DNA of 64,000 nt, taken from assembly GCF_033547095.1 (NCBI RefSeq), contig NZ_CP137852.1:2225501-2289500 (forward strand), given 5' to 3'. A program made the translations under genes and the position numbers. A model generated the notes under the pieces. It was given only the letters and a program-made list of their open reading frames with translations, searched no databases and had not been told where the DNA came from. Position 1 is the first letter of the stretch, and each line of letters starts with the position of its first letter. The DNA is from Sediminicoccus rosea (GTDB lineage Bacteria; Pseudomonadota; Alphaproteobacteria; Acetobacterales; Acetobacteraceae). Shown here in pieces: positions 31,741 to 50,436 of the stretch.

Positions 31741-33093
31741 ATGGCCCAGCTTTTCAACCGTCTCTGCGATTGCGGCACCAGCCACGCCGCCGGCTTCAAC
31801 TGCGTCGAGCAGGCGCCGGGGGATGGCACGGGCGAACTTGGCCGCGCGGTGAACGAGGCCGCGATCCGCGCCGCCTTCCCGGAGGCCAATACCCGCCGCG
31901 CGATGCTGACCGCCTTCGGTGCCGGCACGCTGCTGGCGGCGCTGGAGGGCGTGCTGCCGCTCGGCAATGCGCGCGAAGCCCTGGCCCAGGGGAGCAACAC
32001 GGCGACGGGCGCGCCCGAGAAGCGCGATCTCAAGATCGGCTTCATCCCCATCACCTGCGCCACGCCCATCATCATGGCGGACCCGATGGGCTTCTATCGT
32101 CGCCAGGGCCTGAATGTGGAGGTGATCCGCACGGCCGGCTGGGCCGTGATCCGCGACCGCTCCATCGCGCGCGAGTATGACGCGGCGCATATGCTGGCCC
32201 CCATGCCGGTCGCCATGTCGCTCGGCGTGGGCGTGGCGAACCCCATCCCCTTCTCGGTGGCCGCCATCGAGAACATCAACGGCCAGGCCATCACGCTCGC
32301 CAACAAGCATCGCGACAAGCGTGACCCGAAGGATTGGCGCGGCTTCCGTTTCGCCGTGCCCTTCGACTTCTCGATCCACAACTACCTGCTGCGCGCCTAT
32401 GTGGCCGAAGCGGGCCTCGACCCGGATCGCGACATCCAGATCCGCGCCGTGCCGCCGCCCGAGATGGTGGCGAACCTCCGCGCCGACAACATCGACGGCT
32501 TCCTTGGCCCGGATCCGTTCAACCAGCGCGCGGTCTTCGACGGCGTGGGCTTCATCCACATCCTGACGCGCGAGCTGTGGGACGGGCACCCCTGCTGCGC
32601 CTTCGCCGTGCCGCGCAGCATGATCACCGACACGCCCAACACCTATGCCGCCCTGCTGCGCGCCATCGTCGAAGCCACCGCCTATTCCGACAACCAGGCA
32701 AACCGCGTCGAGGTGGCGAACGCCATCCATGGGCCGAACTACCTGAACCAGCCGCTGACCGTGGTTCAGCAGGTGCTGACCGGCACCTTCGCCAACGGCC
32801 TGGGCCAGGTCGTGCGCCAGCCCAACCGCATCGGCTTCGATCCCTTCCCCTATCACTCCATGGCGGTCTGGATCCTCACGCAGATGCGCCGCTGGAACCA
32901 GCTGCAGCGCGACGTGGACTGGCGTGCGGTGGCGGAGCAGACCTTCCTGGCGCTGGATGCCGGCCGCGTGATGCGCGACCTCGGCATGGCGGTGCCGGCC
33001 AATCCGATGCGCGTCGAGACCATCCTCGGCAAGCGTTTCGACCCGACTCAGCCCGAAGCCTATATGGCGAGCTTCGCGATCAAGCGGAACTGA
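31741..33093 (+). CDS. ABC transporter substrate-binding protein, nitrate/cyanate (NrtA/CynA) family
   Basis: A 450-residue binding protein for import of nitrate, cyanate or a related anion. The mature domain begins near residue 95 with LKIGFIPITCATPIIMADPMGFY, a CmpA/NrtA signature, followed by GWAVIRDR and EMVANLRADNIDGFLGPDPFNQRAV. A Tat-type signal (TRRAMLTAFG, residues 51-60) is preceded by an unusual 50-residue leader with C9, C11, H15 and C21 that could bind a metal. Start at 31741 has GGGAG 8 bases upstream. It is followed by permease, ATPase and cyanase genes, which point to cyanate. Confidence 0.9.
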   Translation: MAQLFNRLCDCGTSHAAGFNCVEQAPGDGTGELGRAVNEAAIRAAFPEANTRRAMLTAFGAGTLLAALEGVLPLGNAREALAQGSNTATGAPEKRDLKIGFIPITCATPIIMADPMGFYRRQGLNVEVIRTAGWAVIRDRSIAREYDAAHMLAPMPVAMSLGVGVANPIPFSVAAIENINGQAITLANKHRDKRDPKDWRGFRFAVPFDFSIHNYLLRAYVAEAGLDPDRDIQIRAVPPPEMVANLRADNIDGFLGPDPFNQRAVFDGVGFIHILTRELWDGHPCCAFAVPRSMITDTPNTYAALLRAIVEATAYSDNQANRVEVANAIHGPNYLNQPLTVVQQVLTGTFANGLGQVVRQPNRIGFDPFPYHSMAVWILTQMRRWNQLQRDVDWRAVAEQTFLALDAGRVMRDLGMAVPANPMRVETILGKRFDPTQPEAYMASFAIKRN

Positions 33094-33097
33094 ACCC

Positions 33098-33949
33098 ATG
33101 AACACCACAGTTCCGGTGTGGCGGGCCGCGCTTCTCTCGGCCGCGCTGCTCTTCGCCCTGCTTTTCGCCTGGGAAATGGCCGTGAAGGGCAGCGCCACGG
33201 GCGGCGCGCCCACGGTGGATCCCGAGCTCGCGGCCCTGCTCAGCCCCGAGGCCGCGCGCGGCGGGCAGACGGCCATGCCGGCGCCCACCGATATCGGCAA
33301 GCGCCTGGTCGAACTGCTGAGCAATCCCTTCCACCAACGCGGCACCAATGACCAGGGCATCGGCATCCAGATCGGCTGGTCGCTCTGGCGCGTCATGGCG
33401 GGCTTCCTGCTGGCGGCGGTGATCGCGATCCCGCTCGGCTTCGTGATCGGCATGAGCCCGCTGCTGAACGCCGCACTCAACCCCTTCATCCAGGTGCTGC
33501 GGCCGGTCTCGCCGCTCGCCTGGATGCCGCTCGCGCTCTACACGATCAAGGATTCCTCGATCAGCTCGATCTTCGTGATCTTCATCTGCTCGATCTGGCC
33601 GATGCTGCTGAACACGGCCTTTGGCGTGGCTTCGGTGCGGAAGGAGTGGCTGAACGTGGCACGCACGCTGGAAGCCGGACGCTGGCGGACGGCGATGCGT
33701 GTGATCCTGCCCGCGGCGGCGCCGACCATCCTCACCGGGATGCGCATCTCCATCGGCATCGCCTGGCTGGTGATCGTGGCGGCGGAGATGCTCGTGGGTG
33801 GCACCGGCATCGGTTACTGGGTCTGGAACCAGTGGAACAATCTGAGCATCGCCGACATCGTCATCGCCATCCTGATGATCGGGCTGGTGGGGCTGGCACT
33901 GGACCGTCTGCTGGGCTTCATCGCCCAGGCCGTGGCCTGGCAGGAGTAG
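33098..33949 (+). CDS. ABC transporter permease, nitrate/cyanate type
   Basis: A 283-residue membrane protein with an N-terminal anchor and about five to six segments in all. The conserved EAA loop is visible as VARTLEAGRWRTAMRVILPAAAPTILTGMR. It forms the channel of the importer with the binding protein 4 bases upstream and the ATPase 4 bases downstream. The NrtB-like C terminus NQWNNLSIADIVIAILMIG supports the anion-importer family. Confidence 0.93.
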   Translation: MNTTVPVWRAALLSAALLFALLFAWEMAVKGSATGGAPTVDPELAALLSPEAARGGQTAMPAPTDIGKRLVELLSNPFHQRGTNDQGIGIQIGWSLWRVMAGFLLAAVIAIPLGFVIGMSPLLNAALNPFIQVLRPVSPLAWMPLALYTIKDSSISSIFVIFICSIWPMLLNTAFGVASVRKEWLNVARTLEAGRWRTAMRVILPAAAPTILTGMRISIGIAWLVIVAAEMLVGGTGIGYWVWNQWNNLSIADIVIAILMIGLVGLALDRLLGFIAQAVAWQE

Positions 33950-33953
33950 GGCG

Positions 33954-34787
33954 ATGACCAACCGGATCGTTTCCGTCGAGGGAATCGCGCGCAAATTTCC
34001 TGGGCTCACTGTGTTCCAGAATGTCTGGTTCGGGATCGAGCGGGGCGAATTCGTCTGCCTCGTCGGGCATTCGGGCTGCGGCAAGACGACCATCCTGAAC
34101 ATCCTGGCCGGGCTCGACACGCCGAGCGACGGCGTGGTGCTGGTGGATGGCAAGGAGATCGAGGGCCCCTCGCTCGACCGTGCCGTCATCTTCCAGGGCC
34201 ATGCGCTGATGCCCTGGCTGACCGCCGAGCAGAATGTCGCCTTCGCCGTCTCCTGCCGGAATCCCAGCTGGGACAAGGGGCGGGTGCGCGATGCGGCGCG
34301 CGAGGCGCTGGCCCGCGTGGGGCTCACCCAGGCGGCCGAGCGCAAGCCCTCGCAGCTCTCGGGCGGCATGAAGCAGCGCGTGGGCATCGCCCGTGCGCTC
34401 TCGGTGAACCCCAAGCTGCTGCTGATGGATGAGCCCTTCTCGGCGCTGGATGCGCTGACCCGCGGCTCGCTGCAGGAGGAGGTCTCGCGCCTCGTCACCG
34501 AGGCGGGGCAGACCGCCTTCATGATCACGCATGACGTGGATGAGGCGATCCTGCTGGCCGACCGCATCCTGCTGATGACCAACGGCCCCGAGGCGCGCGT
34601 GGCGGAGGTGGTGCACAACCGCTTGGCCAGGCCCCGCACCCGCGCCGATCTGCACCACATGCCGGGCTACCACCCGCTGCGCGACCACATCATGGACTTC
34701 CTGATCACGCGCAGCCGGACGCTCGCGGGGACACCCCCCGCCGGTTACGACGCCCGCAACCCGCCCGTCGTCGAACTCGGCGGCTGA
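33954..34787 (+). CDS. ABC transporter ATP-binding protein, nitrate/cyanate type
   Basis: A 277-residue ATPase. Walker A GHSGCGKTTIL, the Q-loop in VIFQGHALMPWLT, the signature LSGGMKQRVGIARALS, Walker B LLLMDEPFSALD and the switch histidine in ITHDVDEAI are all present. The C-terminal extension (YHPLRDHIMDFL) is like NrtD/CynD. It powers the importer formed with the two upstream genes and is followed after 24 bases by cynS. Confidence 0.95.
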   Translation: MTNRIVSVEGIARKFPGLTVFQNVWFGIERGEFVCLVGHSGCGKTTILNILAGLDTPSDGVVLVDGKEIEGPSLDRAVIFQGHALMPWLTAEQNVAFAVSCRNPSWDKGRVRDAAREALARVGLTQAAERKPSQLSGGMKQRVGIARALSVNPKLLLMDEPFSALDALTRGSLQEEVSRLVTEAGQTAFMITHDVDEAILLADRILLMTNGPEARVAEVVHNRLARPRTRADLHHMPGYHPLRDHIMDFLITRSRTLAGTPPAGYDARNPPVVELGG

Positions 34788-34811
34788 TTTCACAACCACA
34801 GGAGAAACGCG

Positions 34812-35294
34812 ATGACGCGCGCTCAACTCACGGAAAAGATTCTCGACATCAAGCGCGAGAAGGCCTGGACCTGGAAATACATCTGCGAGGAAATCGGCGG
34901 CATGTCGCCGACGCTCATCGTGGGCGCCCTGATGGGCCAGATGAAGCTGGTGAAGCCGCTGGCCGCCAAGGCCGCGAAGCTGTTTGGCCTCTCCGAGGTC
35001 GAGGAGCGGATGCTGAACGAGGTGCCCTATCGCGGCACGCCCATGCCGCCGACCGACCCGCTGATCTATCGCTTCTACGAGATGGTGATGGTGAACGGCC
35101 CGGCCTGGAAGGCGCTGATCGAGGAGGAGTTCGGCGACGGCATCATGTCCGCCATCGATTTCGACTTCGACTTCGAGCGTGTCGCGAACCCGAAGGGCGA
35201 CCGCGTGAAGATCACCATGTCCGGCAAGTTCCTGCCCTACAAGTATTACGGCAACGAGCAGGGCATCCCGGATTACGGCTTCAAGGAAGACTGA
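34812..35294 (+). CDS. cynS: cyanate hydratase (cyanase)
   Basis: Decomposes cyanate with bicarbonate to ammonia and CO2. The 160-residue protein has a helix-turn-helix-like N-terminal domain (YICEEIGGMSPTLIVGALMGQ) and the catalytic C-terminal domain. Arg and Glu of YRFYEMVMVNG and Ser of IMSAIDFDF match the E. coli catalytic residues Arg96, Glu99 and Ser122. The C terminus GKFLPYKYYG is slightly longer than in E. coli. AGGAGA precedes the ATG. As last gene of the transport operon it identifies the pathway as cyanate use. Confidence 0.97.
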   Translation: MTRAQLTEKILDIKREKAWTWKYICEEIGGMSPTLIVGALMGQMKLVKPLAAKAAKLFGLSEVEERMLNEVPYRGTPMPPTDPLIYRFYEMVMVNGPAWKALIEEEFGDGIMSAIDFDFDFERVANPKGDRVKITMSGKFLPYKYYGNEQGIPDYGFKED

Positions 35295-35341
35295 TCTCCG
35301 CGCTGGCCGGTCTTCGCGCCGGCCCGATCTGGTGCTTTATC

Positions 35342-35369
35342 CCTCCCGAGGTCTCTCGGGAGGATTTTT
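35342..35369 (+). terminator. intrinsic terminator of the cyn operon overlapping the next gene's RBS
   Basis: A perfect 9-bp stem CCTCCCGAG/CTCGGGAGG with a 4-base loop (GTCT), followed by ATTTTT. The run ends one base before the ATG at 35371. The 3' arm contains GGGAGG, which is also the Shine-Dalgarno of the next gene at 7-base spacing. A second hairpin (GGCCGG, 8-base loop, CCGGCC) lies at 35305-35324. Read-through transcripts would therefore carry a sequestered ribosome site. Confidence 0.85.
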
Positions 35370-35370
35370 C

Positions 35371-36183
35371 ATGTCTGCGGAATTGACGGTCGGCATCGCC
35401 GGCCTCGGCGCCATCGGCCTGCATCTGGCGCGCGCGCTGGACAAGGGCGTGCAGGGGCTGCGCCTCGTCGCCGTCAGCGCGAAGGACCAGACGAAGGCCG
35501 CCGCCAATGTCGCGGGCTTCGCCAGCAAGCCCGCCATCGTGCCGCTGGCGCAGCTGGCCGAGATGGCGGACATCGTGGTGGAAGCGGCACCGGCCGCCGT
35601 CTTCGAGGAAGTGGCGTCATCCGCGATCGAGCGCGGGCGCGTCTTCGTGCCCTCCTCCTGCGGCGCCCTGCTGCCGCGCATGCATCTGGTGGAGCGCGCG
35701 AAGCAGACCGGCGCGCGCATCATCGTGCCCACCGGCGCGCTGCTCGGCCTCGATGCCGTGCGCGCGGCGGCGGAGGGCAATGTCTCCTCCGTGACGATCG
35801 AGACGCGCAAGCCGCCGGGCGGCCTGGTCGGCGCGCCCTATCTCGACCAGCAGAAGATCGACGTCCTGGCGATCACCACGCCCACGATGATCTTCAAGGG
35901 CAATGCCTTCGACGCGGCGCAGGGCTTCCCCGCCAATGTGAACGTGGCGGCCGCGCTGGCGCTGGCCGGCATCGGGCCCGAGCGCACCATGGTGGAAATC
36001 TGGGCCGACCCGGCGATGACGCGCAACCAGCACACCATCCGCGTGGAGAGTGCCGAGGTGCGGCTGACCATGACGATCGAGAACGTGCCGAGCGTGGAGA
36101 ACCCCCGCACCGGCAAGATCACGCCGCTCTCCATCCTCGCCTGCCTGCGCGGGATGACGAGCACGCTCAAGGTGGGCAGCTGA
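35371..36183 (+). CDS. probable L-aspartate dehydrogenase (NadX-like)
   Basis: A 270-residue NAD(P)-dependent enzyme expected to interconvert aspartate with oxaloacetate plus ammonia. It starts VGIAGLGAIGLHLARAL (nucleotide fold) and contains VPTGALLGLDAVRAAAEG and FPANVNVAAALALAGIG, signatures of the aspartate dehydrogenase family. The start ATG at 35371 fits the fold's first strand; an upstream extension would run through the terminator hairpin. Next to cyanase it could assimilate the released ammonia; this link is inference. A GC stem without T-run (36191-36211) follows. Confidence 0.85.
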   Translation: MSAELTVGIAGLGAIGLHLARALDKGVQGLRLVAVSAKDQTKAAANVAGFASKPAIVPLAQLAEMADIVVEAAPAAVFEEVASSAIERGRVFVPSSCGALLPRMHLVERAKQTGARIIVPTGALLGLDAVRAAAEGNVSSVTIETRKPPGGLVGAPYLDQQKIDVLAITTPTMIFKGNAFDAAQGFPANVNVAAALALAGIGPERTMVEIWADPAMTRNQHTIRVESAEVRLTMTIENVPSVENPRTGKITPLSILACLRGMTSTLKVGS

Positions 36184-36190
36184 GGCTGGC

Positions 36191-36211
36191 GCCCCGGGCT
36201 TGTCTCGGGGC
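36191..36211 (+). terminator. GC stem-loop after aspartate dehydrogenase gene
   Basis: GCCCCG and CGGGGC pair around a 9-base loop, 8 bases after the stop codon. No T-run follows, so intrinsic termination is doubtful. The 70-base gap to 36254 also holds GGAGAGG about 8-14 bases before the next start codon. Confidence 0.35.
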
Positions 36212-36253
36212 TGCCGGCGCGCGCAAGCTTGGGGTCCGGAGAGGAAACACCCC

Positions 36254-38230
36254 ATGCGAAACATCGCGCTCATGCTGGCCCTTGCGGCCACGCCCGCCGC
36301 CGCGCAGGTGGCGCGCTTCGAGATGGAAGCGCCCACCCCCGCCTATGCGGGCACGAGCTTCGGCGCCGCCGGCCCCTATGAGCTGCTGCGCGGCCGCGCC
36401 ACCATCGCGCTCGACCCCGCCGATCCGCGCAATGCGGTGATCGCAGACATCGCGCTCGCGCCGCGCAACGCGGCCGGGCGCGTGGAGGCGGTGGCGGATG
36501 TGCTGATCCTGCGGCCCACCGACCCCGCGCGTGCCAATGGCACGCTGCTGGTGGAGCCGCCCAATCGCGGCCGGCAGATCATCGGACAATTGCTGAACGA
36601 TGCGCCGGGCGCCAGCAATGGCCGCTATGCGACGGCGGCCGATGCCGGCAATGGCTGGATGTTCCGCCAGGGCTATACCCTCGCCTGGATCGGCTGGCAG
36701 GGTGACCCGACGCCGGGGCAGGGGATGCGCGTGCAGGTGCCGCGCGTACCGAACGTGACCGGCACGGTGCGCGACGAATTCGTCTTCGACAACCGCACCA
36801 ATCCGGCCATCGGCCGCCTCACCTATGAGCTTGCCGACCCCGCGAGCCTGCGCGTCACGGTGCGCGCCCGCACCGAGGATGCGCGCGCCACGCCACCCGG
36901 CCTCGCCGTCGCCTTCACCGCGCCTGATCGCGTGACCATCACGCGCCCCGAAGGCTTCGATGCGGGCGCGATCTACGAGGTGACGTACACGGCGCGCGAT
37001 CCGGGCGTGATGGGGATGGGCTTCGCCGCCTTCCGTGACGTCGCGGCCGCGCTGCGCCATGGCGAGGTGCCCATGGATCCGCAAGCGGGGGGAAACCCGC
37101 AGGCGGGCCGCGCCTCCGCGCGCGCCGTCACCCTCGGCGTGTCGCAATCTGGCCGCTTCCTGCGTGATGCGGTCTATCTCGGCTTCAACGAGGACACGGC
37201 GGGGCGCCAGGTCTTCGATGGCATGGTCCCGCACATCCCCGGCGCGCGCCGCACCGACATGAACGCCCGCTGGGCGCAGCCGGGCCGCAACCCCTCCGAC
37301 CACACGGACCGCCTCTACCCGGCCGACCAGTTCCCCTTCACCTATGCCGATACGACCGACCCGCTGAGCGGCACCACGGACGGCCTGCTGCGCCGCTGCA
37401 CCGAAGCGCGCCGCTGCCCGCGCATCATGCAGACCGACACGGAGTTCGAGTTCTGGGGCGCCCGCGGATCGCTGACCGTGACGGATGCGGCCGGCCGCCA
37501 TGTCGCGCTGCCGGCCAATGTGCGGGCCTACATGTTCACGGGGCACCCGCACTACGCGACCGCCGAGGCCTGGGCGCAGCAGGGGCAGCTTTGCGCCATG
37601 CCGCTCAATCCGCTCCAGGCCGGTGCGCCGATGCGCGCGCTGATGGTGGCGATGGAGGCCTGGATGCGCGAGGGCAGGGAGCCGCCCGCCTCACGCACGC
37701 CCAATGTGGCGGATGGGACGCTGCGGCCCTCGGGCAACCTGGCCCGGCGCGGCGAGGGGCCGGCCAACTTCGCCTTCCCCCCGATTCCGGGCCTGGTCGC
37801 GCCCGACTCCATCACGCCTGCCTACCGGTTGGATCTCAACGTGATGCCGCCGCGCGCCATCGGTGCCTGGCCGGTGCTGGTGCCGACGGTGGATGCGGAT
37901 GGCAATGCCGTGGGCGGCCTCCGCCTGCCGGTGATCGCGGCGCCGCGGGCCACCTATACGGGCTACAACCCGCGTGCGGCGGGCTTTGGTGCCGGCGCGC
38001 TCTGCACCAACCAGGGCGCCGCGCTGGCCTTCGCGGCGACGCGGGCCGAGCGGGAAGCCCGCGGCGATCCGCGCCCCTCGATCGCCGAGCGCTGGCCGGA
38101 TCAGGCGGCCTATGTCGCCGCCGTGCGTGCGAGTGCGGAGGGCCTCGTGGCGGAGCGCCTGCTGCTGGCCGAGGACGCGGCGGCGATGGTCGCGGCGGCG
38201 GAAGCGGGAACGCTGGCGCGGCTGCGCTGA
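36254..38230 (+). CDS. secreted alpha/beta hydrolase domain-containing protein
   Basis: A 658-residue protein with a signal peptide (MRNIALMLALAATPAAAQ). It opens with an N-terminal beta-rich region (YAGTSFGAAGPYELLRGRA) and carries a nucleophile elbow in LGVSQSGRFLRDA near its middle. It resembles the large alpha/beta-hydrolase family with an internal conserved region found in many Alphaproteobacteria. An oxidoreductase role is excluded by lack of cofactor motifs; an esterase or peptidase is likely but the substrate is unknown. It stands alone, convergent with the next hydrolase gene. Confidence 0.82.
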   Translation: MRNIALMLALAATPAAAQVARFEMEAPTPAYAGTSFGAAGPYELLRGRATIALDPADPRNAVIADIALAPRNAAGRVEAVADVLILRPTDPARANGTLLVEPPNRGRQIIGQLLNDAPGASNGRYATAADAGNGWMFRQGYTLAWIGWQGDPTPGQGMRVQVPRVPNVTGTVRDEFVFDNRTNPAIGRLTYELADPASLRVTVRARTEDARATPPGLAVAFTAPDRVTITRPEGFDAGAIYEVTYTARDPGVMGMGFAAFRDVAAALRHGEVPMDPQAGGNPQAGRASARAVTLGVSQSGRFLRDAVYLGFNEDTAGRQVFDGMVPHIPGARRTDMNARWAQPGRNPSDHTDRLYPADQFPFTYADTTDPLSGTTDGLLRRCTEARRCPRIMQTDTEFEFWGARGSLTVTDAAGRHVALPANVRAYMFTGHPHYATAEAWAQQGQLCAMPLNPLQAGAPMRALMVAMEAWMREGREPPASRTPNVADGTLRPSGNLARRGEGPANFAFPPIPGLVAPDSITPAYRLDLNVMPPRAIGAWPVLVPTVDADGNAVGGLRLPVIAAPRATYTGYNPRAAGFGAGALCTNQGAALAFAATRAEREARGDPRPSIAERWPDQAAYVAAVRASAEGLVAERLLLAEDAAAMVAAAEAGTLARLR

Positions 38231-49751: not shown

Positions 49752-50390
49752 TCACGAAGCCCAGGGCAGACCGGGCAGGCCGAGCGGAAGACGCGCCACC
49801 TCCTCCGCATCGGGCACAGCGAAACCCCGCAGCACGGCCAGCGCCACGCCCTCGGCATGGCCGGGCGGCGCCTCGCCGCGCAGCACGGCGCGCATGCCCA
49901 GGATGCCCGCGCCCAGCACGATATCCGCCGCCGCCTGCATCGAGGCCGCCTGGAAGCGGCCGCTCTCCAGCCCCTCGCGCAGATCCTGGCCGAGATTCTC
50001 CGTCATCCGCGTGCCCAGCGGCGCCGCCACGAAGGCGATCCGCACCACCGCCCAGCCCCATTCCGGCTCGGCCCCCGCCCGGCGGATGTAGCAGCGCAGC
50101 GAAGCAGCCAGACGCGCCGCCGGGTCGCGCCATGCCCGCAGCGGCAGGATCTCCAGGCCGATCACCTCCGCCGCCTCGATCGCCACCGCGGTCAGCAGCG
50201 CCTCGCGCGTTTCGAAGTGGTTGTAGATGGTGCCGCGCGCCACGCCGGCCGCACTTGCCACATCCTCCAGCGCCGGCGCGTCGGGGCCAAGCCGCGCGAA
50301 GACCTGCGTGGCAGCCCCCACCAGCCGCGCGCGGGTGCGGGCGCGGCGCGCATGGCCGATCTCGGCACGGGAGGCGGGCTTGGCCGTCAT
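49752..50390 (-). CDS. TetR family transcriptional regulator
   Basis: A 212-residue protein with an N-terminal helix-turn-helix (ALEDVASAAGVARGTIYNHFETREAL). The helical C-terminal domain ends PLGLPGLPWAS. It is divergent from the sulfatase gene, and the shared 74-base gap contains two copies of a 16-bp inverted repeat. It is thus probably the repressor of the sulfatase gene and of itself. Confidence 0.92.
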   Translation of the reverse strand: MTAKPASRAEIGHARRARTRARLVGAATQVFARLGPDAPALEDVASAAGVARGTIYNHFETREALLTAVAIEAAEVIGLEILPLRAWRDPAARLAASLRCYIRRAGAEPEWGWAVVRIAFVAAPLGTRMTENLGQDLREGLESGRFQAASMQAAADIVLGAGILGMRAVLRGEAPPGHAEGVALAVLRGFAVPDAEEVARLPLGLPGLPWAS

Positions 50391-50403
50391 GGGAGGGATT
50401 GTA

Positions 50404-50436
50404 TTGACGAAAGCGTCAATTTGACAATAGCGTCAG
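50404..50436. promoter_or_regulatory. twin TetR-type operators
   Basis: Two similar inverted repeats in direct succession: TTGACG-AAAG-CGTCAA (50404-50419, perfect) and TTGACA-ATAG-CGTCAG (50421-50436, half-sites TTGAC and GTCA conserved). The period is 17 bases. They fill the gap between the divergent TetR and sulfatase genes. On the minus strand TACAAT lies just next to them, a possible -10 for tetR. Confidence 0.75.

Follow-up and report, generated by a model that had tools for sequence, protein, structure and literature searches.

The mobile element IS10 is protected from outside transcription in that read-through RNA conceals its ribosome site, and the hairpin analyzed here would resemble this system in that respect, IS10 differing as a mobile element. 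For phage T4 gene e (lysozyme) and I-TevI, the accessible parts of the reports describe a Shine-Dalgarno (SD) sequence that a hairpin sequesters in long read-through transcripts alone, together with a promoter just upstream that yields RNA without the 5′ portion, in which the SD is freed; no mention of a terminator role for these hairpins was found in the same parts (PMC3014915, PMC2988022). A bifunctional terminator that hides the ribosome-binding site (RBS), blocking both transcription and translation, was proposed in 2010 (Genome Biol. 2010 11:R97; PMC2965389), and the accessible text of that study gives 18 E. coli candidates located less than 15 nt from a start codon and states that experimental proof of any such case was lacking at the time.

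We analyzed a hairpin lying between the cyanase gene cynS and an aspartate dehydrogenase (AspDH) gene in a window of 64,000 nt, that is, the whole stretch of DNA under study. We propose, with a probability of roughly 0.55, that this hairpin is an insulating, double-acting terminator, which separates the cyn operon from AspDH and does not couple the two. As far as the accessible parts of the T4 reports describe those hairpins, the geometry is the same, the AspDH promoter and transcription start being predicted ones; unlike the T4 hairpins, the AspDH hairpin is located on a bacterial chromosome, carries a U-run right behind the stem and may also terminate transcription. The candidates of 2010, as presented in the accessible text, are putative attenuators in leaders, whereas the AspDH hairpin is placed between two genes and would hold a transcription start in its 5′ arm. 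If our reading is true, the element is a natural insulator of compact form: one stem provides both termination and a translational lock, and only the gene's own promoter yields readable mRNA. It would then also represent, on a chromosome and open to testing, the terminator/RBS-sequestering element for which the accessible text of PMC2965389 gave no demonstrated example. Literature searches revealed no paper naming both "cyanase" and "aspartate dehydrogenase", and the same element was not recognized in titles and the beginnings of abstracts among the matches listed.

The features of the locus are summarized in Table 1. The cyanase gene scored 207 bits against NF002773 and 138 bits against TIGR00673, both over the cutoff, and the ABC transporter genes preceding it, the bounds of which were taken from a simple gene caller, also gave profile matches reaching the ntrB and ntrCD cutoffs. 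AspDH scored 342 bits against NF009825 (cutoff, 253), and its ATG at 35371 is the aligned AspDH start in most relatives. The two genes are separated by 76 nt, 47 nt of which lie between the end of the cynS stop codon and the stem; at this distance, ribosomes terminating on cynS would not be expected to touch the hairpin.

Table 1. Features of the cynS-AspDH locus (positions in the window)
Feature	Position	Strand	Basis or remark
ABC transporter genes, nitrate/cyanate-type (substrate-binding protein, permease, ATPase)	31741..34787	+	NMT1_2, BPD_transp_1, ABC_tran
cynS, cyanase, last gene 5′ of the hairpin	34812..35294	+	NF002773, TIGR00673
Upstream hairpin, 7 pairs, 6-nt loop	35305..35324	+	-13.7 kcal/mol
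CTTCGCG, -35-like element	35312..35318	+	fixed 12-nt distance to GGTGCTTTA in 6/6 clade genomes
GGTGCTTTATC, extended -10-like element	35331..35341	+	conserved position and spacing; putative promoter function
Hairpin 5′ arm, CCTCCCGAG	35342..35350	+	sequence, fold; would hold the start of the putative AspDH promoter, ~35346-35349
Hairpin 3′ arm, CTCGGGAGG	35355..35363	+	contains the SD GGGAGG
ATTTTTC, terminator T-run and SD-to-ATG spacer	35364..35370	+	sequence
Aspartate dehydrogenase gene (AspDH), 270 aa	35371..36183	+	NF009825; orthologues

The sequence-only reading had placed a perfect 9-bp hairpin with a T-run before the AspDH ATG, with the SD of this gene inside the hairpin's 3′ arm, and both were found as described. 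The terminator-like hairpin (35342-35363) consists of a perfect 9-bp stem with 7 G-C pairs and the loop GTCT; folded alone, it reached -17.2 kcal/mol, a value equaled by none of 200 dinucleotide shuffles. The GGGAGG occupies 35358-35363, with a spacing of 7 nt to the ATG. By sequence, a G+C-rich stem followed by a U-run is the form of an intrinsic (Rho-independent) terminator, with a short U-run of 4-5 in this case. A consensus scan of 3 kb at a loose threshold gave 1 match versus 1.1 expected, which is not significant.

Upstream of the hairpin, a promoter-like element, CTTYGCG-N12-GGTGCTTTA, was found with constant spacing in all six genomes of the clade that carries the hairpin (see below), although the 12 intervening nucleotides were present in five different sequences. 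The pattern TG-N(1-3)-TA occurred at -50 to -25 in 59 of 90 distinct AspDH leaders, the mean and maximum in 200 mononucleotide shuffles being 10.7 and 18, and at -85 to -60 in only 7, but this pattern was picked after the leaders had been seen and the leaders are mutually related. Among own-genome control starts, it was present in 17 of 195 with a gap ≥60 nt and in 3 of 136 in-operon starts with a gap below 10 nt. The Caulobacter RpoD -10 consensus, given as GCTANAWC in the accessible part of PMC8144410, is matched by GCTTTATC at 6 of 7 fixed positions. An E. coli-type promoter scan of 34000-37000 found no promoter, and the full Caulobacter -35/-10 score barely discriminated, with means of 9.46 for AspDH leaders, 9.04 for shuffles and 9.20 for in-operon starts; in one clade leader, L115, the best match to the full Caulobacter consensus fell elsewhere than the element. 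With the usual spacing, a promoter at this element would start transcription at ~35346-35349, inside the 5′ arm. A promoter giving a leaderless transcript had been named beforehand as an observation that would speak against a switch; a conserved promoter-like element does lie just upstream, but the predicted start leaves a short leader.

In the mechanism that we infer, RNA polymerase leaving the cyn operon would make the whole hairpin, and the hairpin together with the U-run would stop part of the transcripts. The SD would be locked in the stem of the read-through RNA, and AspDH would therefore be poorly made from such RNA. Transcription from the gene's own putative promoter, CTTCGCG-N12-GGTGCTTTATC, would start within the 5′ arm and give an mRNA without most of this arm, so that the stem could not close and the mRNA would be translated. 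Termination, promoter activity, the start site and the translational effect are all steps proposed from sequence. The computed accessibility of the SD differed between the two kinds of RNA: the mean predicted probability of being unpaired was 0.001-0.002 in five RNAs starting at or before 35342, versus 0.32-0.49 for starts at 35345-35350 (0.49 at 35348) and 0.18 for a start at 35344. The earlier claim of an SD closed in read-through RNA thus held in prediction, with a mean of 0.001. We suggest, more tentatively than the insulator itself and at somewhat less than even odds, that the 22-nt hairpin carries four signals, namely the operon terminator, a translational lock on read-through RNA, the start site of the next transcript and the SD, and that it represents a chromosomal, double-acting hairpin of the T4 lysozyme type, which originated inside a single genus and keeps apart two genes that in some relatives have 1 nt between them.

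Leaders were taken at 126 loci (best matches only, with duplicates among them) from 30 of the 98 family genomes that gave a match (200 searched), the best 80 of 216 contig matches and 20 of 21 genus genomes, and were reduced by their last 60 nt to the 90 distinct leaders. The AspDH gene was carried by all 21 genus genomes searched. The hairpin was confined to one clade comprising 6 of these 21, with 14 lacking it and 1, G216, cut before the start; the match in G216 covers residues 150-270 only, which leaves its leader unreadable. The clade consists of the own genome (G000; L001) and five relatives (L111-L115) at 96-97% protein identity, and three of the six loci (L111-L113, the same loci as L031-L033) come from metagenome assemblies. 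All six genomes have cynS, a short gap, the promoter-like element, the hairpin, TTTT(T)C and the ATG, and the T-run is missing in the other 14 genus genomes. Across the 90 distinct leaders, TTTT directly before the start was present in exactly the six clade leaders; unbroken stems of 8 or more pairs were seen in five of these six plus one distant leader without a T-run (L125). Same-strand cynS was located within 600 nt upstream in 37 of the 90; among these 37, a terminator-like match was obtained for 5 of 6 clade leaders and 2 of 31 others (L041 and L051), L114 (the same locus as L034) being the only clade leader that failed the terminator test. Since all six genomes belong to one clade, one origin is to be assumed, and the chance figure of 8e-7 calculated for six genomes ignores this kinship and is not independent evidence. 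Conservation of the hairpin and its spacing in related species, suggested earlier as a check, extends to a single clade; if the proposed role is true, this clade may uncouple two adjacent genes through few base changes.

The stems of the clade differ in sequence (pairs numbered from the loop outward in the 9-pair core). The core was identical in three of the six (L001, L112 and L113), contained one G-U pair in L111, and contained two G-U pairs plus one broken central pair (G-G) in L114. In L115, both sides were changed at pair 3 (G-C to A-T) and pair 4 (C-G to G-C); this stem is perfect and longer, and its loop is 5 nt versus 4. These pairing changes favor a conserved RNA stem, a conclusion for which the double change in one lineage is the basis, and the paired changes of L115 could instead have come from a templated, palindrome-correcting mutation and not from selection.

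Other functions of the hairpin were weighed against the insulating terminator. The sequence-only reading had proposed a switch linking cyanase to AspDH expression, a regulated attenuator in which a signal opens the hairpin to allow both read-through and translation. A nearby upstream cynS, seen in 37 of the 90 leaders, and the 1-nt gaps of L004 and L007, when GTG is taken as the AspDH start codon there, imply that the genes may be functionally linked. However, no competitive antiterminator was seen: with three RNA starts, the best fold left after the terminator pairing was barred was less stable by 13.4-13.8 kcal/mol. The second, upstream hairpin, which had been offered as an alternative structure, does exist, but it neither overlaps the terminator nor is conserved: in L112 and L113, no more than 24 nt lie between cynS and the promoter-like element, too few to form it, L111 and L114 have strong folds of other sequence and pairing, and L115 has a partial counterpart. 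There was also no Rfam match in the window at the gathering score, and the conserved promoter-like element makes read-through unnecessary. The switch was thus not borne out, and we regard it as improbable.

A second possibility is that the palindrome acts as DNA, as a repressor site for the AspDH promoter. It is perfect and lies directly 3′ of the -10-like element, and the position just after a -10 is the usual place of an operator. We consider this about as improbable as the switch, since in L115 the arm sequence and the spacing of the centers (4 to 5) differ with the pairing kept, the change in L111 and two of the three in L114 are tolerated as G-U, the palindrome has a single genomic place, and the T-run co-occurs with the hairpin. 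Better placed than either, but still rather unlikely, is a plain terminator that merely ends the cyn operon, where stem and SD overlap through compact packing, with no separate translational role. A hairpin with a U-run is the standard form of an intrinsic terminator, little space is left between the genes, and GGGAGG naturally serves as a G-rich 3′ arm. Two points speak otherwise: the predicted closure of the SD in read-through RNA and the rarity of comparable hairpins in the own genome, which was sampled over 464 kb (the window and 20 stretches, each of 20 kb; 403 genes called by the simple gene caller). Counted by strand, this sample contained 344 hairpins of at least 8 perfect bp, of which 5 were followed by a T-rich tail and 4 of those 5 were noncoding, corresponding to 3 places, one counted on both strands. 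The AspDH hairpin was the only T-tailed one in the sample at most 150 nt before a called gene start. TTTT within the last 10 nt before the start was found at 2 of 400 gene starts, the other of which was not among the T-tailed hairpins, and hairpin and T-run were present together at 1 of 400. Stems of 8 or more consecutive pairs, G-T counted as a pair, ended near the start in 14 of 385, AspDH included; with 1 in 400 versus 14 in 385, the combination is unusual and the stem alone less so. The hairpin pattern occurred at a single place in the own genome, and the exact 9-bp palindrome in 1 of 200 family genomes, the own genome being that one; G212 and G213, where the palindrome is likewise present (loci L112 and L113), were not in this draw.

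Outside the clade, L004 and L007 have the cynS stop codon and the AspDH GTG start separated by 1 nt, which suggests one translationally coupled operon of cynS and AspDH. L011, L013, L120 (same genus, ~80% identity) and L125 carry a different hairpin in the AspDH leader, with a 3′ arm touching or holding the SD and no T-run; these are possibly independent origins of the same design. An SD hairpin conserved across the family was considered and dropped, although the distant leaders L011, L013, L020 and L125 fold well, because the 84 non-clade leaders (mean z, -0.55; z ≤ -2 in 12) were not clearly different from own-genome control starts that have an SD and a gap ≥40 nt (mean z, -0.40; z ≤ -2 in 13 of 112).

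The pattern GGAG-N(0,3)-TTTT-N(0,4)-ATG occurred at six places in the own genome. The five leaders other than that of AspDH folded at -8.0 to -14.2 kcal/mol versus -18.7 kcal/mol for the AspDH leader, and a long perfect stem was present in none of the five. One of these five, a gene start with GGAGATTTTCCGATG (L148; G000:C1:1142515-1142529, plus strand), has its GGAG paired in a bulged hairpin of -14.1 kcal/mol and is another possible SD-hiding leader with a T-run. On the minus strand, a 131-aa gene (L138; within G000:C1:2600001-2620000), which by eye looks like a carboxymuconolactone decarboxylase, has GGGAGG in a 3′ arm directly before its start, in the hairpin CCCTCCC-gccatca-GGGAGG without a T-run (z, -4.8). 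In the window, a strong palindrome, TTGACG-cttt-CGTCAA (~50391-50430; z, -7.0), precedes a gene on the minus strand whose start is at 50390; judged by eye, this gene encodes a TetR-like regulator, and the palindrome is perhaps its operator.
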